From: a virus | Virus record (IMG/VR): IMGVR_UViG_3300034283_001581 | Coordinates: 1-35,626 of that record | DNA length: 35,626 nucleotides | Direction: 5' to 3' (one strand) | Notes under the pieces: model-generated | Told to the model about the DNA's origin: nothing | The model's database searches: none | The model's input: only the letters and a program-made list of their open reading frames with translations | Part shown: positions 5,136 to 33,342 of the stretch, piece after piece | How positions within the stretch are numbered: the first letter of the stretch is position 1 | Layout of the letters: each line of letters starts with the position of its first letter | Position numbers and translations under genes: made by a program

Positions 5136-8100
5136 ATGGCTGATTATACGGGGCTAATCCGAGTTGGCATAGAAGGCCTTGGCCAGATTCGGCAGCTTAA
5201 TACAGAACTTGAAAGGGCAAATCGGCTAATCAATGGCCTGGAAGGTGCCGAGGCAAATGTAAGGCAAGCCGGCGAATCCGCTAGCCGCAATGTTGCTGCG
5301 GCTAGGGATCGAATGTCCCGAGCCGGCTTTGAGCGGACTAGAGCATATAGAACTTTTGAAAATACAAGCCAAAGGATTGATCCCGCTACAAACAGGTACC
5401 TTCCTGGCGGTCCAAACGCTACTGCCAGAAGACTGTCCGCCAACAATTTGCTCCTAGCGGAACGCGAGACAAGGGAAGCAGCGCGAAACTTAAGAGAGCA
5501 GGAGCAAAATCGACGCTTAATAGCTGCGGCTGAAGGCAGGTATGCCAGGGCCGTAAATCGCGCCGCTGACATCCAAGAGCGTACCGGGGAGAGGCGCAAT
5601 GACCAAGAGCTTCGCAATCGGCAGACAATGCAAGGCATCGGCAATGCAAGCCGTGGCAATTATCTTACCAACTTATTTCAGGGCAGGCAACGCGAATTTG
5701 CGCGAGGCGGCGGCGGCGCGGGATTGAGTCAGGAGCTGCAGCAGCAAGCGCGCAACGTGCGCGGCGCATGGGATCTTGCTACTGCCGGCGGCAGAGAAAA
5801 TCTGCAACTGATGCAACGAATCGCCACGGAAATGGCTGGCTTGTTGCGCCAGCAGAATAAGCTTGAAAGAGCGCAAAGAACAGCGCGAAGGCGTATCGAC
5901 ACTGCTGCGAGAGCGGCGGGAGGCGCAGTTGACAAAGGACTCGCAACTGAAGTATCGCTAAATGACAGAACATTTAACGATAGGCTGCGTGAATCAAAAG
6001 AACGCGCAAAGCGAGAGTCGGACCTGTTCAAAGCAAGCAGCAAAGAAGCCGGAAAAGACTTTGATCAAAGGTTGCAGAATCGCGTCAGAGAGCGGCAAGC
6101 GGAGCAGCGCTCTGCTGTCCGTGACCTAAATACAAGGTCTAGCTGGCAGAAGGCGTTAAGCGAAATGGAGAGCCGGAAAACGGTTTCCGATCGTGAAAGA
6201 AGTAAGCGCTTTAGAGAGAAATCTTTGGCCGAGGAAAAGCGGCAAGCTGATCTTGGTATCGGCGTCAATGCTCCTACCCGCATCGGCGGGCCAGTTAAGC
6301 GCACGGGCGCTATTCCGATGGGCGGCGGAATTGACTCGGGCATCATGCCGCGAGCGCTTCCAAGCAGCAAAATACTGGAAAGCAGAATAGCCAATGCTGG
6401 GCAAAGGCAGCCAACTCGACTTGACGATCTGCAAGCAGCTTCGCAAAAGAAACTGGCGAAGGAGGCTGAGCGAGCCGCCGGCTCGCTGGGGCGCTTTGGC
6501 GCGGCGCTGGAGCGCGAGGAGAAGCGGCGGGCAAGCCTGGGAATCGGCACTCCTGGCGGCGCAGGCGGCTCGACTCGGAGGGGCAACGCAATCCCGATGG
6601 GCGGACAAGGCGGGCGGCAGGGCATGTTCAATCAGTACGCTTCCCCGGCCGGTCCCGGCAACCCGATTGGCGTTGGAGAGTTTCAAAGAATTCAGAAGGC
6701 GCAACGCGAGCAGCAGCGCCAGCAAGGCAATCAAAAGGGCTTTTTCCAGGGTGACTTGCGCAGTGCGATTGGTGATGCGCTGATTGGTGGTGCATTCCCC
6801 GCCCTGTTTGGCCAGGGCCTTGGTGCATCGGCTGGCGGTCTTGCTGGCGGCCTTGCTGGCGGCGCAGTCGGAGGCAACTTTGGTTTCGGCCTTTCCCTCG
6901 TCGGCACTGCAATAGGCCAAGTCGTTGATACGACCATTGGCAAACTAGGGAGCCTTGGCGATGCGCTAGGCAGCGCGTCAGACTCGATTAAGGGATTGGA
7001 GGATGCTGGCTTCCGTGTGCGCGATAGCCAAAAGGTGCAAATTGCTCAGCTAGAAAAAGTTGGTCGTGGCTACGATGCACAAGCGGTAGCGCTCAAGGAA
7101 GTTGAATCCAGGCTTGGCCCTGGCTCAGTTGCGCAGATAGAAAAATTAAACGAAGCCCAAAAGCAGCTTTCTGATTCCTGGGCGGCGCTTTCATTGCAAC
7201 TCGGGGTATCACTGATTCCGGTAGTTGCCGAGGCCGCTAGTCTTATTGCGGACCTGTTCGGCAGATCCCCTGGCGGTTCAGGGTCCGGCGCTGCACCTAA
7301 ATCCACCAGACCACGTAAGCCATCGGAAGTGCTTGCGGATATTGACGCATCCATAGCGTTAAACCAGACACTCAAGGCCGGAAACAGGGAATACGCCAGC
7401 CTTGTGCGCGATGCAGAAGATTGGCGGCGCGACAATGAAGATAAGATTTTTCAAATGCGCCGCCAAGGCGTTGACATTGAAAAACAAAAGTCAGATTTAC
7501 GCCTTGACGTAGAAAACAAAATCTTTGACATGAGGCAGCAAGCTGCCACCCTAGAAGCAGACAATACACGCGCTCGCGCACAGCTTGCCATCAATTCATT
7601 TGGCCTTGGTCTTGACCGGCGAGCTGACGCCATTGGAGGCAGGGCCGGTGACTTTATCGCTCAAGTCAGGGAATACTTGCAAGCGAGGGATCAAGGCGAG
7701 TCCGAATTGCAAGCCAAGGAAAAAACAGCAAAGCTGCAAATTGCGGCCAACGAGCGAAGCCTGCAGCAGTACATTTTGCAAGTCTCGGACAAAGTTGCCT
7801 CCATTGCGAGAACCGTAGAGGACTACAAGCGTGATCAGGAGAAGTTCAGATTTGAGTCGTCAAGGCGAATAGAAGACTATCGCATCAAGGCGGAAGATTA
7901 CATCTACAGCCGCGTCAAGGATCGCTATGAGTACGCGATTGGTAGCGAGCAGGAAATACTGCGAATCAAGATGGAGGCCGCTGCTGCGTTGGGGGCGGCA
8001 TTGCCAGCAGACGCAGGAAGGGTGCTTAGCGGCACCGGGCCAACTGCAGTCGGTATGGCCGGCTTAGCAAATCCACTCGGGGCACAAAGCAGCGGGCGGG

Positions 8101-10220
8101 CGCCTAACTGGAATCAGGGACTTGGCGCTGGCCGTGGCCACCAAGGGCAGGATATTGGCGTTGACGTTGGCACGACCATCCATGCCATTGAAGATGCGGT
8201 TGTCGAAGGAATAATCAAAGGATTCAGCAGGGACGGCAACCCCAGAGCTGGCGATGCGGTCATGCTTCGCTATCTCAGCGGGCAGCTTGGCGTTTACGGC
8301 CACATTAAGCCGCTCTCTGGTATCGCCCCCGGTCAGCGTGTCAAAGCCGGCCAGCAAATTGGAACCATATCGGACTGGGGCGACAACAGCCACTTGCACT
8401 ATGAGCTGTGGAAGCGCAGGCGCGGCGCTGGCGGCGAACTGCTTGACCCAACGGAAAGATTGCGCTCTGCAATGAGCGGCAGGCGTGCCAGGCCACCAAT
8501 GCCAGCCACTTCTTCCCAGAGAAGGTCAGGGCCGGCAATGCTGCTCCCCGGCGTAACAGGGCCGGCATTGCAGCCGTCTGCGCCCGCTACGACGGACAGC
8601 ATGTTTGACCGGCGGCAATCCTCTGCCCGCCCCGGTATTGGCGATCAATTTATTTCGCTGCTTAGCAAGCAAGGCGGGTTTGAGGATACCGCTGGGCCTG
8701 CAATCGCGCAAAAACGGCTGCCGACTTACGCTCCTGCGCCGCTGGCACCGCCGACCCTGCCGGCATCGCCGCAACTGCCAGCATCGCCAGCGCCGATGGC
8801 GATGCCTGACATTAAGCCGCTCGCAACAGAGCTGCGCAAGCAGAACAGCGAGCTACTGCAGAGCGTGCAACTTGCCAACAAATTAGAGCAAGTAGAAAAT
8901 GGTCGCCTACTACTTCAGTTGTCGAGCACCAGGGAAGTGCGCGATCGACTGGAAGATGCCACCAAGGAACTTGCGCTTGAATCTAAAATTGCCGAACTCG
9001 GCAAATCTTTAAGTGACAACGATCAAAGCAGAGCAGTAGAAAGAACTCGCACAGCTTTTGCTGCTGAAGAATTAAATAGGCTTGAGCAGCAAAGCCTGGG
9101 TTTTGCTAATGAACTGCTGCAAAAAGGCAAATTACAGAAAGAAGAGTACGATTCTATAACAAGGGGGCTTAGGGAGAGAATTGGCTACGAAAAAGACTTG
9201 CTCCAGGTAGCGGAAGACAGGGCCGAAGTCGCACGGCAAGAAGCATTTAACCAAAGGTCCGGGGAGATTGTGCGCGAGACTCGGCTCGTTGGCGCTGGCT
9301 TGCGTGCTGGCCGCATCGGGGCGGAAGCGCGTGCTTTTGAGGAGGAGTTGAGACTTTCCGGCGATGTTGGCAAAGCGAATCAAATGGCCGATAATACTAA
9401 GCGGCTTGAAGATCAACGACTCGTCTGGGCTAATCTTGAAAAAGATATTGTCAGTGTATCCGATGCAATCTCTGGCGCTTTAACAAATGGCCTGGTTGAT
9501 ATTGTAAGCGGCGCCAGGAGCATCCAGGACGTAGGCCGCGACATGCTCAATAGCATCGCTGGCAGCTTTGCGGACTCCGCGCAACAGCAGCTCGGCAATC
9601 TAATGCAACGTCAACTCGGCGGATTGCTTGGCGGCCAGCAAGGGCCACTCGTCAAGATGCTTGGTGCCGGCGCGGAGGCGGCCGGTCCGCAAGCGCTGGG
9701 TGCCGCCTCCATGGTGGCCTCTGGCCAGGTTGCAGCATTCGGCATGGCGCTACAGACAGTCGCCGCTCAAATGGCCTTCTCCAGTGCCCTGGGCGGGGGC
9801 TCAGCGTTGTCCGGTGCGCTGGGATCGGCGGTTTCCGGCGCCGCGCCAAATTTGTTCGGCAACGCACTGTCAAGCAACATAACCGATATTGCATTCGGCG
9901 GCTTTCTTGCTAACGGTGGCACGGCACAAGCCGGCAAAGGTTATGTCGTTGGCGAAAAAGAACCAGAGTTTTTCTTCCCTGGCGTTACCGGCAGGGTAGT
10001 GCCGCGCAGTGACATGGAAAAAGCCGCTGCATTAGGCCAGTCCGGCGGGCAGGCTGATCCGCTGGAGCTGGATTACACTGTGACCGAACGGCAAGGCGAG
10101 CGCATGGTTACAGAGGAGCAAATGCGCAGAAACAATGCCCTGCTACTTAAGCAAGCGCAAGCCAGAACGCTTGCTTCCATGAGGAACAATAAAGAAGTCC
10201 GTGACTTTGTGAACATCTAA
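5136..10220 (+). CDS. tail tape measure protein with M23 peptidase domain
   Basis: A 1694-residue protein, by far the longest here, that sets tail length and is ejected with the DNA. Residues 1-530 are charged, helical, coiled-coil-like and rich in Arg, Gln, Glu and Ala. A glycine/alanine-rich hydrophobic region follows (about 545-620), then more coiled coil. An M23 (lysostaphin-type) metallopeptidase domain lies at about 990-1110: H1002-x-G-x-D1006 and H1086-x-H1088 are the expected zinc ligands. It would cut peptidoglycan cross-links during DNA entry. A proline-rich linker (about 1195-1230), a further helical block and a hydrophobic C-terminal region with G-G-F-L-A-N-G-G and E-P-E-F-F-F-P-G motifs, typical of tape measure C-termini, complete it. 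ATG 5136 gives M-A-D-Y-T-G-L-I-R-V. Its TAA overlaps the next ATG. Confidence 0.93.
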   Translation: MADYTGLIRVGIEGLGQIRQLNTELERANRLINGLEGAEANVRQAGESASRNVAAARDRMSRAGFERTRAYRTFENTSQRIDPATNRYLPGGPNATARRLSANNLLLAERETREAARNLREQEQNRRLIAAAEGRYARAVNRAADIQERTGERRNDQELRNRQTMQGIGNASRGNYLTNLFQGRQREFARGGGGAGLSQELQQQARNVRGAWDLATAGGRENLQLMQRIATEMAGLLRQQNKLERAQRTARRRIDTAARAAGGAVDKGLATEVSLNDRTFNDRLRESKERAKRESDLFKASSKEAGKDFDQRLQNRVRERQAEQRSAVRDLNTRSSWQKALSEMESRKTVSDRERSKRFREKSLAEEKRQADLGIGVNAPTRIGGPVKRTGAIPMGGGIDSGIMPRALPSSKILESRIANAGQRQPTRLDDLQAASQKKLAKEAERAAGSLGRFGAALEREEKRRASLGIGTPGGAGGSTRRGNAIPMGGQGGRQGMFNQYASPAGPGNPIGVGEFQRIQKAQREQQRQQGNQKGFFQGDLRSAIGDALIGGAFPALFGQGLGASAGGLAGGLAGGAVGGNFGFGLSLVGTAIGQVVDTTIGKLGSLGDALGSASDSIKGLEDAGFRVRDSQKVQIAQLEKVGRGYDAQAVALKEVESRLGPGSVAQIEKLNEAQKQLSDSWAALSLQLGVSLIPVVAEAASLIADLFGRSPGGSGSGAAPKSTRPRKPSEVLADIDASIALNQTLKAGNREYASLVRDAEDWRRDNEDKIFQMRRQGVDIEKQKSDLRLDVENKIFDMRQQAATLEADNTRARAQLAINSFGLGLDRRADAIGGRAGDFIAQVREYLQARDQGESELQAKEKTAKLQIAANERSLQQYILQVSDKVASIARTVEDYKRDQEKFRFESSRRIEDYRIKAEDYIYSRVKDRYEYAIGSEQEILRIKMEAAAALGAALPADAGRVLSGTGPTAVGMAGLANPLGAQSSGRAPNWNQGLGAGRGHQGQDIGVDVGTTIHAIEDAVVEGIIKGFSRDGNPRAGDAVMLRYLSGQLGVYGHIKPLSGIAPGQRVKAGQQIGTISDWGDNSHLHYELWKRRRGAGGELLDPTERLRSAMSGRRARPPMPATSSQRRSGPAMLLPGVTGPALQPSAPATTDSMFDRRQSSARPGIGDQFISLLSKQGGFEDTAGPAIAQKRLPTYAPAPLAPPTLPASPQLPASPAPMAMPDIKPLATELRKQNSELLQSVQLANKLEQVENGRLLLQLSSTREVRDRLEDATKELALESKIAELGKSLSDNDQSRAVERTRTAFAAEELNRLEQQSLGFANELLQKGKLQKEEYDSITRGLRERIGYEKDLLQVAEDRAEVARQEAFNQRSGEIVRETRLVGAGLRAGRIGAEARAFEEELRLSGDVGKANQMADNTKRLEDQRLVWANLEKDIVSVSDAISGALTNGLVDIVSGARSIQDVGRDMLNSIAGSFADSAQQQLGNLMQRQLGGLLGGQQGPLVKMLGAGAEAAGPQALGAASMVASGQVAAFGMALQTVAAQMAFSSALGGGSALSGALGSAVSGAAPNLFGNALSSNITDIAFGGFLANGGTAQAGKGYVVGEKEPEFFFPGVTGRVVPRSDMEKAAALGQSGGQADPLELDYTVTERQGERMVTEEQMRRNNALLLKQAQARTLASMRNNKEVRDFVNI

Positions 10221-22754: not shown

Positions 22755-22779
22755 AAACACACCAACGCACAAAGCAAAA

Positions 22780-22812
22780 GAGCGCGTGTATTGCTACACG
22801 CGCTCTTTTTTT
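22780..22812. terminator. bidirectional intrinsic terminator
   Basis: An 11-bp perfect stem (22780-22790 with 22795-22805), loop TTGC, flanked by A4 on the left and T7 on the right. It works for the rightward lysis operon and, on the other strand, for the leftward operon ending at 22858. Confidence 0.93.
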
Positions 22813-22857: not shown

Positions 22858-23463
22858 TCAGGCGGCCTGAGCCCCGTCCAAAAGAGGCGTGCCAGGCTGC
22901 TCGACAGGCTCGCTCTTGCGTGGCTTGACGGGCTCCACGACGCCAGTAGGCGTAAGGAGAATGCAGCCACCCTCGGGATAGCTGACATCAAACACCTCGC
23001 CCACTTTGGCGCCAATCTTGCGGGTCGCCAGTTGCGATACCAACAAGATGCCTTGACCGCTAACGCGAGCCTTGGTTTCGCCGGCATGGGAACGACCGGG
23101 GCCAGTAGGACCGCCGCCAGTTTCAATTCCCTGCGCCTCCAAAAGTGCCTTGTTGAATTGCGCGACCATCACTCGCTCCTGCCCGGTTTTAGTGATGGTC
23201 TGATACCCGGCATCAAAGGCAATCTCAGTGTGACTGCGACCGGCTGCCTTTTGCTTGTTATGGAAGGCGAGCAGTTCAGCGCCAACAAGTCGAGCAACAG
23301 GCTCGACGGGCTCGGCAGCTTCAGCGGGCTCGGCGGCTTCAGTGATAGATGCGCCATCGGCCATCAGATCGCCAAAGTCCTCCAGCCCCTCTTCAGGGTC
23401 TTGGGTTTCGATGGGCTCCTCAAGGACAGGTTCGGGAGCAGCGGCTTTGGTTTTGGTGGGCAT
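22858..23463 (-). CDS. cyAbrB-like transcriptional regulator
   Basis: A 201-residue protein starting at ATG 23463 (a GTG at 23508 would add 15 residues but lies upstream of the promoter-like elements). Residues 1-57 are acidic and disordered (repeated E-P, A-E-P). From about residue 58 the text G-A-E-L-L-A-F...A-G-Y-Q-T-I-T-K-T-G-Q-E-R-V then F-N-K-A-L-L-E-A-Q-G-I-E follows the cyAbrB family (AbrB-like, PF14250), which is confined to cyanobacteria ('..C-G-Y-Y-T-V-T-K-N-G..R-V...F-L-N-A-L-L-x-A-x-G'). The C-terminal part with S-G-Q-G-I-L-L-V and K-V-G-E-V-F-D-V matches the AbrB DNA-binding half. Host cyAbrB proteins regulate carbon and nitrogen genes, so this phage copy may act on host or phage promoters. 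Confidence 0.8.
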   Translation of the reverse strand: MPTKTKAAAPEPVLEEPIETQDPEEGLEDFGDLMADGASITEAAEPAEAAEPVEPVARLVGAELLAFHNKQKAAGRSHTEIAFDAGYQTITKTGQERVMVAQFNKALLEAQGIETGGGPTGPGRSHAGETKARVSGQGILLVSQLATRKIGAKVGEVFDVSYPEGGCILLTPTGVVEPVKPRKSEPVEQPGTPLLDGAQAA

Positions 23464-23486: not shown

Positions 23487-23515
23487 AGCATACCACGCAA
23501 TCAGGCACGCATCAA
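23487..23515 (-). promoter_or_regulatory. promoter of the cyAbrB-like gene
   Basis: Reading leftward: TTGATG (-35, 23510-23515), a 17-base spacer ending in TGG, then TATGCT (-10, 23487-23492), an extended -10. The predicted start of transcription is about 17 bases before the ATG. It overlaps the 3' end of the exonuclease gene and is the best sigma-70-type match I see in the window. Confidence 0.6.
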
Positions 23516-24403
23516 CGGAAAAAGCGCGTTAAGCGCAGATCGGAAGACAGCATGGCCACCAGCCATCACCGATCGTTGGTGATGCAGTAACAGGCCGCCA
23601 GCGAACTGGAGCCATCCCTGGTCAAGATCAGGTCGGTTCCAGTGATGCTCCTTGACACCATCGACCGATAGCATAAAATTGATACCACGCTCTACGCGCA
23701 AGCCATGACGCAAGCCATGAATTGCTTCAACGCCGAAAGCGTAACTGCCTTGTTGCATTTGCCAGCCATCACGCACGCGAGCAGTTACCTCCTTGACCTT
23801 GCCAGCGTTGTAGTCAGCATTAGCAAGATGCGCACAAATGCCACGCAGGATTTCGTCGTCTGGAGCGTAATCGGAAAGTCGCTGATAGCGTTCGGTGTAG
23901 TGCTCGGCTTGATTGCTTTTCCAGTCGCACATAGTCACAATGCCGTCAACTTCAGCAACAAGATCAGGCGTCAAGCCATAGCAGCCGCCAGGGTGGATCA
24001 TCGGTTCTTCGATAACATAGACCTTCCCGATACGGGGAAGGACGCTTTTGAGCCATAGCTTATGTATCGCGGCGGCTTCTACGTCTTTAGGGCATTCCGG
24101 CGCTACTTCTTTCTGCTCAAAAGAGCCAAGCGATAAGCCGGCCATGCCATGAAACCTTGTGCCAACATCAGCGCGAATATCTCTTACGCGCTCCATAAAA
24201 TACTCAGCACCAGATTCGCTAAGCCCTTTGCGCAGCAGTGATTGACGCCATCGCGTCTTGTCAAAATCCTTGCCGCCGGCCAATGCGATAATGCGCGAAG
24301 ACGACGGTACTTCGATATACGGTTCACCCGTATAAAAATACTTGTGGTCTTCTTCCCTAAAAAAAACTCCCGGCTGAGCCGGGAGTAAGCGAAGTTCAAA
24401 CAT
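23501..24403 (-). CDS. PD-(D/E)XK exonuclease (RecB/Cas4-like)
   Basis: A 300-residue protein starting at ATG 24403, whose first base overlaps the preceding stop (TGATG). H20-K-Y-F-Y-T-G...P-S-S-S-R-I-I is the 'HxYxxxGxxxPSVTxI' opening of phage RecB/Cas4-type nucleases. G81-T-R-F-H85-G, T-P-D147 and D160-W-K162 supply the catalytic His, Asp and D-x-K core. It would resect DNA for the ERF annealing protein upstream. Codons 6-15 coincide with a terminator-shaped hairpin. A longer ORF reaching 24706 is a frame shadow of the proline-rich gene and is not used. No start exists between the hairpin and the H20 motif. Confidence 0.8.
   Translation of the reverse strand: MFELRLLPAQPGVFFREEDHKYFYTGEPYIEVPSSSRIIALAGGKDFDKTRWRQSLLRKGLSESGAEYFMERVRDIRADVGTRFHGMAGLSLGSFEQKEVAPECPKDVEAAAIHKLWLKSVLPRIGKVYVIEEPMIHPGGCYGLTPDLVAEVDGIVTMCDWKSNQAEHYTERYQRLSDYAPDDEILRGICAHLANADYNAGKVKEVTARVRDGWQMQQGSYAFGVEAIHGLRHGLRVERGINFMLSVDGVKEHHWNRPDLDQGWLQFAGGLLLHHQRSVMAGGHAVFRSALNALFPLMRA
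24359..24386 (-). terminator. intrinsic terminator-like hairpin inside exonuclease codons 6-15
   Basis: On the leftward strand, a perfect 9-bp stem (24378-24386 with 24366-24374, outer pair A-T), triloop TCA, and eight T (24366-24359). It sits 17 bases after the exonuclease start codon. It has the full form of an intrinsic terminator, yet lies within the coding sequence. It could act as an attenuator governed by ribosome passage. Confidence 0.75.
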
Positions 24404-25086
24404 CAGAAGTTTTGTGGGAGAACGGGAGCAAGGCCAGCGGGCGCGTACTGCGGCTGTGGCGGGCCGGCGGGCGGCTGGCCATGGATCGCGCCAGGCATCG
24501 GCTGAACCGGCGCTGGAGGAGCGACAGGCTGCTGTGGCGCGGCGAAGCCAGCGGGCACAGGCACATGAGCAGGCCAGCCTTCGGGCGCCTGCTGTGGCTG
24601 CATCGGCTGCGGGCTCCCGTACTGCGGCTGGGAGCCGTAGAGCTGAGCAGGAGCTGGCTGAGGCTGAGCAGGAGCTGGCTGAGGCGCCTGCGGCTGCTGG
24701 GGCCACTGCGGCTGCTGCTGTGGCTGTGGCTGAACCTGTTGCGGCGTTGCCTGCTGGTACTGTTGCGCGGCCTGCTGGCGTGCAGCAGCGCTGTACTGGG
24801 TTTCGCCCAAAGTAGAGAGCTGACCCGAAAGGATCGGCTTTTTATCGCCAGGCGTTACCTGTTGCGCGTAAAGCGCAATGTCGAGCTTAATGCAAGGCTG
24901 GCCGCCGCGATCCTGCGTGTACTGGCCGGCATTGAATGCAGTCAGTAACTCTTGAACTAGAGCATAAGAAAGCTCCAGGTTGCCTTTGTAGTCAGGCTGG
25001 TTTGCAGCATTCTTGCGATCATTGACCCAAAGCGCAGTGCGATTGGGGCGATACTGAGCCTGTTGTTGCGGTTGAGAGGGAATCAC
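24403..25086 (-). CDS. putative ssDNA-binding protein with Pro/Gln-rich tail
   Basis: A 227-residue protein starting at GTG 25086, overlapping the ERF stop (GTGA). Residues 12-95 form a compact domain (N-R-T-A-L-W-V-N-D-R-K-N...P-D-Y-K-G-N-L...I-K-L-D-I-A-L-Y-A), a pattern of small phage single-strand-binding-like proteins. Residues 96-227 are almost only Pro, Gln, Ala and Gly, with 21-bp tandem units, and are surely disordered, like the tails of SSBs. It lacks the usual acidic D-D-I-P-F tip and ends L-P-Q-N-F. Its place between annealing protein and exonuclease supports a recombination role. The OB-type call is tentative. Confidence 0.5.
   Translation of the reverse strand: MIPSQPQQQAQYRPNRTALWVNDRKNAANQPDYKGNLELSYALVQELLTAFNAGQYTQDRGGQPCIKLDIALYAQQVTPGDKKPILSGQLSTLGETQYSAAARQQAAQQYQQATPQQVQPQPQQQPQWPQQPQAPQPAPAQPQPAPAQLYGSQPQYGSPQPMQPQQAPEGWPAHVPVPAGFAAPQQPVAPPAPVQPMPGAIHGQPPAGPPQPQYAPAGLAPVLPQNF
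24642..24683 (-). repeat. 21-bp perfect tandem repeat
   Basis: Two identical 21-bp units (24642-24662 and 24663-24683) encode Q-P-A-P-A-Q-P-like heptapeptides in the disordered tail of the ssDNA-binding-like protein. It is one of three slippage-type loci in the window. Confidence 0.9.
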
Positions 25087-25748
25087 TGAAGGACGGGGAG
25101 AGGTTGAACAGGGTTGACCATTGCCGGCGGCATTGCTGCCATCGGCGGCTGAGAATGTTGCGGGTACATCGCTTGCGGCGCCTGCACTTGCTGACCAGGA
25201 GCAGGCCAGACGCCAACGCCGCCAGGCAAGCCCGGAAGTTGCGCTACGGCAGGAGCGGGAGCGTTGTAGCCGCCGCTACTACCATCATCGTCATCCTCAG
25301 GGCAAACGGCAAGCAACGCAAACAGATTGTAACGTGTGCCGTAAGTGAACGACCCGCCAATTTTGTGAAGGGTTGAAATGTCGCTGATCGGAAAATCAGA
25401 GTACATTTCCTCGCGGCCATCGACAAACGCAAGCGTCGTTCGCACAAGCCAAGCACCTTCAAGGCACATGGCTTGACTGTAAACGACAACACCTTGATCG
25501 AGCAGCGGTTGCTTAATGGCTTTAAGTAAGCCAGGCAACTTAAGATACTTCGACTTAAGATAGGTGTTGTCGCTATCTTTAGTCAAATCGCCAAAGCCAG
25601 CAGAAGCGGCAGCGATAGCCTCAAGTAGTGATGGTTGCCTCAAAGGAGTAACAGGGTGCGCCATTGGCGCGGGCTGTACTTGTGGCGGCGGTGCAACGAC
25701 CTGAAGCGGTTGCACTTGCGGCGGTGGAGAGGCTGGTGTTCGTGCCAT
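25083..25748 (-). CDS. erf: ERF-family single-strand annealing protein
   Basis: A 221-residue protein. Residues 1-38 are proline/glutamine-rich. Residues about 40-155 follow the ERF superfamily: L-L-E-A-I-A-A-A-S-A-G-F-G-D-L-T-K-D-S-D-N-type opening, Y-L-K-L-P-G-L-L-K-A-I-K-Q-P-L, then I-G-G-S-F-T-Y-G-T-R-Y-N-L-F-A-L-L and a D-D-D-D tail ('YG.RY.L..ll.i..eddd'). The remainder is Pro/Gln/Met rich. It would anneal complementary single strands in phage recombination. It is translated in an overlapping operon with a ssDNA-binding-like protein and an exonuclease. Start ATG 25748. A TACAAT hexamer lies upstream. Confidence 0.82.
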   Translation of the reverse strand: MARTPASPPPQVQPLQVVAPPPQVQPAPMAHPVTPLRQPSLLEAIAAASAGFGDLTKDSDNTYLKSKYLKLPGLLKAIKQPLLDQGVVVYSQAMCLEGAWLVRTTLAFVDGREEMYSDFPISDISTLHKIGGSFTYGTRYNLFALLAVCPEDDDDGSSGGYNAPAPAVAQLPGLPGGVGVWPAPGQQVQAPQAMYPQHSQPPMAAMPPAMVNPVQPLPVLQ

Positions 25749-26361: not shown

Positions 26362-28791
26362 TTAATCGGGGAACCTTCCAAGCGCTACAAAAGTTTGCGA
26401 CTTTCCCTCTCGCCATTCGCCAAGACCCATTGAGACAAGCTGCTCCATTGCAGCCTTAACCTGTGACTGTTGCACGGTTCTGCGATGCCTGACTGGAACG
26501 CAAGCAGATACAAACTTCGCCGCAGTGCAGCCATTATTCGCCTTCGCATAAACGTGGACACGCCTATTAAGATCAAACGCGCCGTGCCTTTGCATCTGGG
26601 ATTCCTGTTGCTCGACAATCGCGTAGCTTTGAAGTAAATCCACCAATACCGTAGCACGCGCTAGTAGCTGCTTGGACAAGTATAGCTCGCTGACGGTTTC
26701 CTCATTAGCAGCAACACGGCATAGATGTATAACAAGCGCAACTTGCAGCACATAACCAAGCCGCTTGCCATACACGGCTCGCTGACTTTCAAGCGATACA
26801 GCTTGCGACTTGTCGTAGGTATCGCGGTGCAGCGCCTTAAACAATTCTACCGCTTCCGGTTCAAGTCTTAGCACAATCGGCTTCAGTTCAAGGCAGCGTA
26901 AATAAAAGTTCTCCAGGCATTGCTCAGCCATGTGTACTGCTATAAGTTCCTCTGGCGAACGACAAAAGTTTGGCTCTTTGTAATCATTGACCAATGGCAC
27001 CATTAGGCAACGGGCAAACAAGCCGGCATCATCACCTTCCTCAATCATCTTGCGGAATACACCAGGCTGCACACCACCTATCAATGCGTTTTGCACTTTG
27101 CCTTTCACCATCTTAGCTCGCTTGCCAACGCGATGCGAAGTATTGACATTGCCATCAAACAAGCAAAGAAACGTTTCCTTGCCCTTGCCTTTACCGCCGG
27201 TCTTGTATTCATCAAAGTTGCCAAGGATCTCCTTGATCTCCTCAGAGTAGATGAAAGTACCTAACCCCTGCCGGTGGTTGTCGCCCAAAATGCCTGTTAA
27301 ACTTTCAGTCGTAAAGTTTGCGATACAAGTTTGCAGCGGCTCTGGCCTGTCGGGACGCAACGCTTTCGCTACGTTCAAATAGCGTGCCTCATATTCACTT
27401 TCAGCAGCGTCACTAATATGTTCATAATGATTCAGAACAAGCCGCAACCTGTTCTGGCACAAATGACGCATAATTGGACTTTTGCCGCTACCGGACGAGC
27501 CAGATAGCAGCAGCCACATTATGGGTTCTTTAACAAACAAGCCATCGCCTGCGTCAACGCGATGGCCTGCCTTGAATGCACCGGCAGCAGTAGTAAGCAC
27601 CACTGCTATTGCCGTAAGCGGATCACAGGCAAGGTTGGCCGTTAATGTTTCAACCGCACCAAGTATCAAGTCAGGCAAGTAATCAGCAATGGCAACAGAC
27701 TCTCTTTTGACCGCTATGTTCTGTCGCTGCGTTATTGCAGTCGTAGCACCAAGCGCCTCATCCTCAACCTGCCGGTCTTCTTCCAGGGAGTCCCATATCC
27801 TCCTAGTATCAAACGCTGACGCGTCATGAGCGCTGGCAATATCTGCGACACCAGCTTGTATGTCAGCAGCAGAGGCTGGATTGGTTTCGTAAAATTCCTG
27901 CAGCGCTTTTTTGATCGCGCCATAGCTGACGCGGCTTAGTGGTGCCGGTTTTGCGCCTGACGCTGACTTAATCGCTACTGCAATAAGCGAGCCAAGTTGC
28001 TCCGCTGGCATATCATCAACTGAGCCACCATCCGGCACATTGCAAATGGACTCTGCCGGAACAACGCGCAACTCAATCTGCGCAAGTTGCGCAGCAGCTA
28101 AAAACGCAGCCGCTTTCTTTCTGCCAGGCGCGTCGTTGTCTGATATAAAGTAAACAGTCTTTACACCTACTGACAGCAGGCCCGCATATCTTGCTCTGCA
28201 GCTCACCTCGTCCCGTTGGTGGCCAGGGTGAGTGATTGCCGCAATTCCCTGCGCACGCAATACGTCAACACACTTTTCTCCTTCAACTTCTATTATTGAC
28301 GCGCCAGAATTGTTATCGACCGATCCGTAGAACGGCCATATTTCAGAGCCAGCGCCAGCATTCCAGCGCCCATTAAAGAAAAACTGTGGCTGAAAATCTT
28401 TCTTTTTGTCGCCTTCATAGTCAGATCGGACTACCCGCAAGTCTTCCCTGTACTGATATGTTGTAGCCAGGCAAGGCAGCTCATTTTTTACCGCCGGCAG
28501 TGGGACAGCGGCAGGCCACGGCTCGCAAGCGGGCAGACTGGTGCCTGGCCTGTCGATCACAAACACCGCGCCATCCCTACTGTCGTCCCTCGACTCCCCA
28601 GTGTAGGCCCACTGGCGCTGCTGAGCGTCGGTCAGGATCTGGCCCAACTTCAGTCGCTCGGGTGGCCCCATACTCTTGCCGCGATGGCAAATCACCATCT
28701 CGCCATCGGCGCGAGTACGGCAATCCCCATCCTTAATCCTGCCGCAAATTGGACAAGGATTCTTCGCGCCTGACTGCTGCCAGCGTTCCAT
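26362..28791 (-). CDS. primase-helicase (Toprim + DUF3987-type ATPase)
   Basis: An 809-residue replication protein. An N-terminal zinc-binding module has C13-P-I-C16, C24 and C35. A Toprim domain follows with E168-V-E-G-E-K and S-D218-N-D220-A-P-G-R, the acidic metal ligands for primer synthesis. A middle linker leads to an ATPase with a Walker A, G431-S-S-G-S-G-K437-S, in the style of DUF3987/D5-like helicases. The C-terminus looks like a winged-helix-type DNA-binding end. It would unwind and prime the phage genome. Start ATG 28791 gives M-E-R-W-Q-Q. It heads the leftward arm. No DNA polymerase gene is present, so the host enzyme or one outside the window must serve. Confidence 0.85.
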   Translation of the reverse strand: MERWQQSGAKNPCPICGRIKDGDCRTRADGEMVICHRGKSMGPPERLKLGQILTDAQQRQWAYTGESRDDSRDGAVFVIDRPGTSLPACEPWPAAVPLPAVKNELPCLATTYQYREDLRVVRSDYEGDKKKDFQPQFFFNGRWNAGAGSEIWPFYGSVDNNSGASIIEVEGEKCVDVLRAQGIAAITHPGHQRDEVSCRARYAGLLSVGVKTVYFISDNDAPGRKKAAAFLAAAQLAQIELRVVPAESICNVPDGGSVDDMPAEQLGSLIAVAIKSASGAKPAPLSRVSYGAIKKALQEFYETNPASAADIQAGVADIASAHDASAFDTRRIWDSLEEDRQVEDEALGATTAITQRQNIAVKRESVAIADYLPDLILGAVETLTANLACDPLTAIAVVLTTAAGAFKAGHRVDAGDGLFVKEPIMWLLLSGSSGSGKSPIMRHLCQNRLRLVLNHYEHISDAAESEYEARYLNVAKALRPDRPEPLQTCIANFTTESLTGILGDNHRQGLGTFIYSEEIKEILGNFDEYKTGGKGKGKETFLCLFDGNVNTSHRVGKRAKMVKGKVQNALIGGVQPGVFRKMIEEGDDAGLFARCLMVPLVNDYKEPNFCRSPEELIAVHMAEQCLENFYLRCLELKPIVLRLEPEAVELFKALHRDTYDKSQAVSLESQRAVYGKRLGYVLQVALVIHLCRVAANEETVSELYLSKQLLARATVLVDLLQSYAIVEQQESQMQRHGAFDLNRRVHVYAKANNGCTAAKFVSACVPVRHRRTVQQSQVKAAMEQLVSMGLGEWREGKSQTFVALGRFPD

Positions 28792-32621: not shown

Positions 32622-32649
32622 TGTCTTGTTCAACCAGCCACAGGTAAAC

Positions 32650-33338
<689 letters not shown>

Positions 33339-33342
<4 letters not shown>

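Follow-up and report, generated by a model that had tools for sequence, protein, structure and literature searches.

A phage gene encodes a protein, P0002, that is very probably a diverged member of the cyAbrB family. It lies in a 35.6 kb IMG/VR virus record (IMGVR_UViG_3300034283_001581, positions 1 to 35,626), here called the window. We show that P0002 is kin to cyAbrB and shares its architecture, that its gene closes a recombination operon, and that this gene is conserved and under selection in related phages. We suggest that its likeliest role, at a probability of about 40%, is to interfere with cyAbrB, a nucleoid protein of the host, in an anti-silencing, dominant-negative manner.

Results

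P0002 is a distant relative of cyAbrB

The reading frame of P0002 is uninterrupted over 201 codons (Table 1). Against Pfam, the protein matches PF14250 (AbrB-like) across residues 102-161 with an E-value of 2e-5 and 25.0 bits, a borderline pass of the cut-off of 25. A DNA-level search gives 27 bits, above the cut-off, which two relatives of P0002 also exceed. P0002 is a distant cyAbrB relative, since intact full-length host cyAbrBs reach 82-122 bits. None of the PHROG and NCBIfam models describes P0002, and a Pfam search finds no ArdA domain in it. Alignment with host cyAbrB and an AlphaFold model both recover the two-part plan of the family, in which the conserved N-terminal domain comes first and the AbrB-type domain lies at the C-terminus. 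The kinship proposed in an earlier, sequence-only reading is therefore upheld, with the profile threshold barely passed. All 80 of the 80 genome matches listed are cyanobacterial by title, in keeping with the confinement of cyAbrB to cyanobacteria and their phages. A chance match to PF14250 was also considered; it is ruled out, since the two domains are conserved, as are gene order and selection.

Table 1. Coordinates of the phage cyAbrB-like gene, the parts of its product and the surrounding operon.
Feature	Position	Strand	Basis
Phage cyAbrB-like gene (protein P0002, 201 aa)	22858..23463	-	intact frame, PF14250 at cut-off, relatives, purifying selection
Acidic, probably disordered N-terminal extension, residues 1-57	23293..23463	-	net charge about -13; AlphaFold pLDDT mostly 50-70
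cyAbrB N-terminal domain, residues 58-113	23125..23292	-	helix, helix, hairpin, helix; 17/21 host-conserved residues
C-terminal AbrB-type domain, diverged, residues 124-171	22951..23094	-	model fold; PF14250; 9/27 host-conserved residues
C-terminal tail with PGTPLLD-like motif, residues 172-201	22861..22950	-	four-lineage alignment
Strong terminator-like hairpin after the cyAbrB-like gene, between convergent genes	22776..22809	.	consensus scan, 15 pairs
Promoter-like element before the cyAbrB-like gene, TTGATG-17-TATGCT, TGn before second hexamer	23487..23515	-	8/12
Exonuclease, directly upstream of the cyAbrB-like gene	23501..24403	-	phrog_298 exonuclease, E 6e-11
P/Q-rich ORF	24403..25086	-	no Pfam family; order conserved
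Erf-like ssDNA annealing protein	25083..25748	-	Pfam ERF E 8e-7; phrog_2324 E 1e-16
DUF3987 helicase-type protein, operon head	26362..28791	-	Pfam DUF3987 E 3e-27
Promoter-like site before the DUF3987 gene	28920-28892	-	consensus scan

The AlphaFold model of P0002 has a mean pLDDT of 74.7, with the acidic tail at low confidence. The N-terminal domain is predicted confidently, both within the full model (pLDDT about 92-96) and when modelled by itself (92). After a linker comes the AbrB-type domain, modelled as strand-strand-helix-strand-strand at a pLDDT of about 80-88. The best PDB matches to the model are SpoVT, AbrB and histone-like proteins, with weak E-values; the N-terminal domain has no PDB analogue by sequence or by fold.

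The gene is maintained in related phages

Four further independent IMG/VR contigs carry a gene of the same clade, with 97, 60, 59 and 54% identity to P0002, and one of them has an additional near-identical contig that also carries it. Each related contig has the order Erf, P/Q-rich ORF, exonuclease and cyAbrB, of which the near-identical second contig shows only a part because it begins within the exonuclease. All three related contigs that extend far enough have the DUF3987 helicase upstream, at 72-87% identity, and the exonuclease is 71-98% identical in related contigs. The cyAbrB of the clade changes faster (54-60% identity) than the adjoining exonuclease (71-87%).

Overall dN/dS between the four lineages is 0.25-0.38, which places the P0002 gene under purifying selection. 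By part, the strongest constraint falls on the N-terminal domain; the sequence of the AbrB-type domain is likewise under purifying selection. The PGTPLLD-like motif of the C-terminal tail is kept across the four aligned lineages of the clade. Thus, the gene is neither absent from related phages nor decayed, the outcomes that would have spoken against the sequence-only reading.

The DNA-binding half has diverged and the N-terminus is acidic

Conservation is unevenly distributed along P0002, which keeps 17/21 host-conserved residues in the N-terminal domain and 9/27 in the DNA-binding domain (Fisher p 0.0014). In the family, the conserved residues of the DNA-binding domain include GR, NGN, Y and LGRK. 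We class P0002 as a diverged relative and not as a functional cyAbrB because most of the conserved set is gone. When picocyanobacteria are counted among the reference hosts, the clade retains 62% of host-conserved residues in the N-terminal domain and 33% in the DNA-binding half, whereas other phage cyAbrB copies keep 84% and 83%, respectively. GR, Y146 and LGRK are replaced in all five clade copies. The last strand of the AbrB domain is basic in hosts (mean charge +2.2), but has a charge of -1 to -2 in the clade.

In the cyAbrB tree, the clade is monophyletic (100/100) and is separated from all other sequences by about 5-7 substitutions per site; the tree does not settle its nearest relatives or its place within the cyanobacteria. 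A placement beside picocyanobacterial cyAbrB is not supported (85/43).

Every clade copy bears an N-terminal extension of 58-76 aa with a net charge of -8 to -18. By comparison, across 106 host copies the N-terminal extension has a median length of 9 aa, never exceeds 57 and carries a charge between -2 and +11. The sequence of the tail drifts (dN/dS 0.4-1.05) while its acidity is retained. The proposal that hosts lack an acidic, disordered N-terminus of about 57 residues holds for the acidic form, which is specific to the clade; length alone does not set the phage proteins apart, for Calothrix and its relatives have a long N-terminus that is basic.

The gene ends a recombination operon

The cyAbrB-like gene closes the recombination operon: it follows the exonuclease by 37 nt, and no clear terminator lies between the two. 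It had been described as separate from this operon, which these features render doubtful. It had also been credited with the best sigma-70-type promoter in the window, and this claim fails. The best match (TTGACA-16-TAAAAT, 11/12, 23652-23679) lies on the + strand inside the exonuclease and is directed away from the cyAbrB-like gene; it may give rise to an antisense transcript or be due to chance. The site on the gene's own strand reaches a score shared by 649 sites in the window, so a strong promoter of its own is rejected. What persists is an extended -10-like motif, TGnTAnnnT, that recurs at the same place before the gene in 4/4 independent lineages, and a modest, putative promoter of its own is possible.

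The P/Q-rich ORF might, at a guess, encode a ssDNA-binding protein. Just past its TGATG overlap with the exonuclease gene, the first codons of the latter contain a strong intrinsic-terminator hairpin (24366-24386, -; ACTCCCGGCTCAGCCGGGAGT followed by a T-run). This hairpin is nearly identical in four phage lineages and could attenuate expression of the exonuclease and cyAbrB genes.

The host is probably a cyanobacterium

Among named phages, the cyanosiphoviruses S-2L, KBS-S-2A and S-H1 come closest by capsid protein. Together with the cyanobacterial genome matches, this indicates a cyanobacterial host at the phylum level only. The gene had been thought to identify the likely host, and it does so for the phylum but not for the genus. 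When the window was compared with 386 cyanobacterial genomes, the stronger matches fell in an Ala-rich repeat ORF and the remainder measured 24-60 bp, which does not point to a host; the helicase has only distant matches. The Ala-rich, repetitive ORF (32626-33342, +) resembles repeats in 217 of the 386 genomes at the DNA level and is probably of low complexity. Elsewhere in the window, positions 5136-10220 (+) encode a protein of 1694 aa that is probably the tape measure and contains an M23 peptidase domain.

cyAbrB genes and fragments occur in many other phages

A scan with picocyanobacterial cyAbrB found relatives in 148 viral contigs, with near-canonical copies. We retrieved 80 of the 148. 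Those examined are of phage origin, since terminase, portal, head, endolysin, polymerase and RecT genes adjoin. Of the 80, 51 have both terminase and portal genes beside cyAbrB, which lies between the two in the cases inspected (in a large IMG/VR group, labelled L198-L253, its neighbours are the portal gene and that of the terminase large subunit), and RecT is near the near-canonical gene in 11. The cyAbrB tree requires at least three changes of phage label, a pattern consistent with several captures of cyAbrB by phages. BFVD also contains an “AbrB family transcriptional regulator” (A0A6S4PMF7) from an uncultured MedDCM phage.

Searching isolated phages by tblastn with P0002 or Acaryochloris cyAbrB gave no match, which reflects sensitivity, as the picocyanobacterial query did match them. 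In P-TIM68, the cyAbrB N-terminal domain stands alone as a 52-aa protein lacking the AbrB domain. In S-B28, WH11-B and 7B11-B it is joined to a part that is annotated as antirestriction in WH11-B and 7B11-B; the ArdA match in the S-B28 protein is sub-threshold (E 0.029). B23 has the domain in another fusion. The loci of the N-terminal domain in isolated cyanophages are L171:1480-2037, L172:1480-2037, L170:1501-1656 and L173:1411-1836.

Discussion

The features of P0002 are most readily compared with those of its host counterparts. Like cyAbrB1 and cyAbrB2 (PF14250; Synechocystis sll0359 and sll0822), it has a two-domain order and keeps the residues of the N-terminal domain. The DNA-binding domain of host cyAbrB sits C-terminally (PMC4284466), and P0002 retains one third of its conserved residues. 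P0002 further differs in its acidic N-terminal extension, in AGY for CGY and in a longer C-terminal tail. Near-canonical viral cyAbrBs and A0A6S4PMF7 are likewise phage-borne and full-length, but the near-canonical copies have a host-type DNA-binding domain, lack a strongly acidic tail and occupy other genome positions. The P-TIM68, S-B28, WH11-B, 7B11-B and B23 proteins share the N-terminal domain with P0002, and those of S-B28 and WH11-B also an acidic part; all lack the AbrB domain, and their remainder is unrelated to P0002.

cyAbrB2 is reported to resemble H-NS and to occupy AT-rich DNA and IS elements (PMC11368403), and silencers of the H-NS-like kind yield N-terminal fragments with dominant-negative action (PMC7074111). 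Both reports favour the interference reading, and by analogy the architecture of P0002 would fit that of dominant-negative or counter-silencing proteins. Encoded by the last gene of an early replication and recombination operon, the diverged cyAbrB would most likely associate with host cyAbrB through its conserved N-terminal domain. Host cyAbrB is a nucleoid protein and coats DNA that is AT-rich or mobile; the acidic tail, together with the changed DNA-binding half, would strip it from phage DNA or keep it off; DNA binding by P0002 itself would be reduced or altered. This reading is suggested by the retention of the N-terminal domain alongside a changed DNA-binding domain, the negative last AbrB strand in the clade, the acidic tail in all copies and the peak of selection on the N-terminal domain. 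Isolated cyanophages that carry the N-terminal domain without an AbrB domain point the same way. Against it, the predicted AbrB fold and the purifying selection on it mean that P0002 may still bind DNA, and the window, with a G+C content of about 50-56%, does not stand out as AT-rich and hence as a target.

The same fold and selection lend themselves to a possible, if doubtful, alternative, in which P0002 is an autonomous transcription regulator whose C-terminal AbrB domain is re-tuned to phage operators and sets early-operon timing or a late-gene switch. AbrB proteins are classically transition-state regulators, and the gene's place at the end of the early operon, with its own conserved promoter-like element, would suit such a role. 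However, most host-conserved DNA-binding residues and the basic last strand are lost, and the acidic tail disfavours DNA binding. Gene order has also to be weighed. Within the clade, cyAbrB invariably comes right after Erf, the P/Q-rich ORF and the exonuclease, and RecT is found near some near-canonical copies, as would be expected of an accessory DNA-architecture protein, a partner of Erf and the exonuclease in handling phage DNA and not a regulator of the host. Such a role is unlikely, given that the contigs with terminase and portal beside cyAbrB point away from recombination and that no sequence feature links P0002 to it.

The main idea of the sequence-only reading, a plain mimic that replaces host cyAbrB on host promoters and resets host metabolism, agrees with the domain order and would be a better fit for the near-canonical phage copies. 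For P0002 it is improbable: the clade's DNA-binding half lacks two thirds of the residues kept by hosts and other phage copies, which by sequence argues against simple mimicry, and no link to metabolism, including that of carbon and nitrogen, is seen. A captured gene decaying without function would account for the weak profile score and the long branch, yet is very improbable given frames intact in all copies, a conserved position and the low dN/dS.

Phage copies of host nucleoid silencers are already known. Homologues of H-NS, Lsr2 and CgpS, and truncated H-NS antagonists, are likewise phage or mobile-element copies of a host silencer (PMC7074111), although these are protein families unrelated to P0002; that review mentions neither cyanobacteria nor AbrB. 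Our literature search, which covered sources other than subscription papers and preprints, found no paper describing cyAbrB in cyanophages. As far as these sources show, the cyanobacterial version is new, above all the clade whose tail is acidic and whose DNA-binding half is altered.

A recent proposal casts cyAbrB2 as a nucleoid protein of cyanobacteria with a possible part in defence against foreign DNA (PMC11368403). A bolder reading, which we rate as less likely than not, is that the cyAbrB N-terminal domain has repeatedly served cyanophages as an adaptor to counter the silencing of foreign DNA by cyAbrB, whether alone, with an acidic ArdA-like part or as in P0002. Our findings draw attention to this uncharacterised domain, which lacks a solved structure and is common to host and phage proteins. 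The many cyanophages with cyAbrB genes or fragments, including the diverged acidic form, offer a direct route to testing the role of cyAbrB in phage conflict. If the domain does serve as such an adaptor, cyAbrB would be the cyanobacterial counterpart of H-NS in that conflict.
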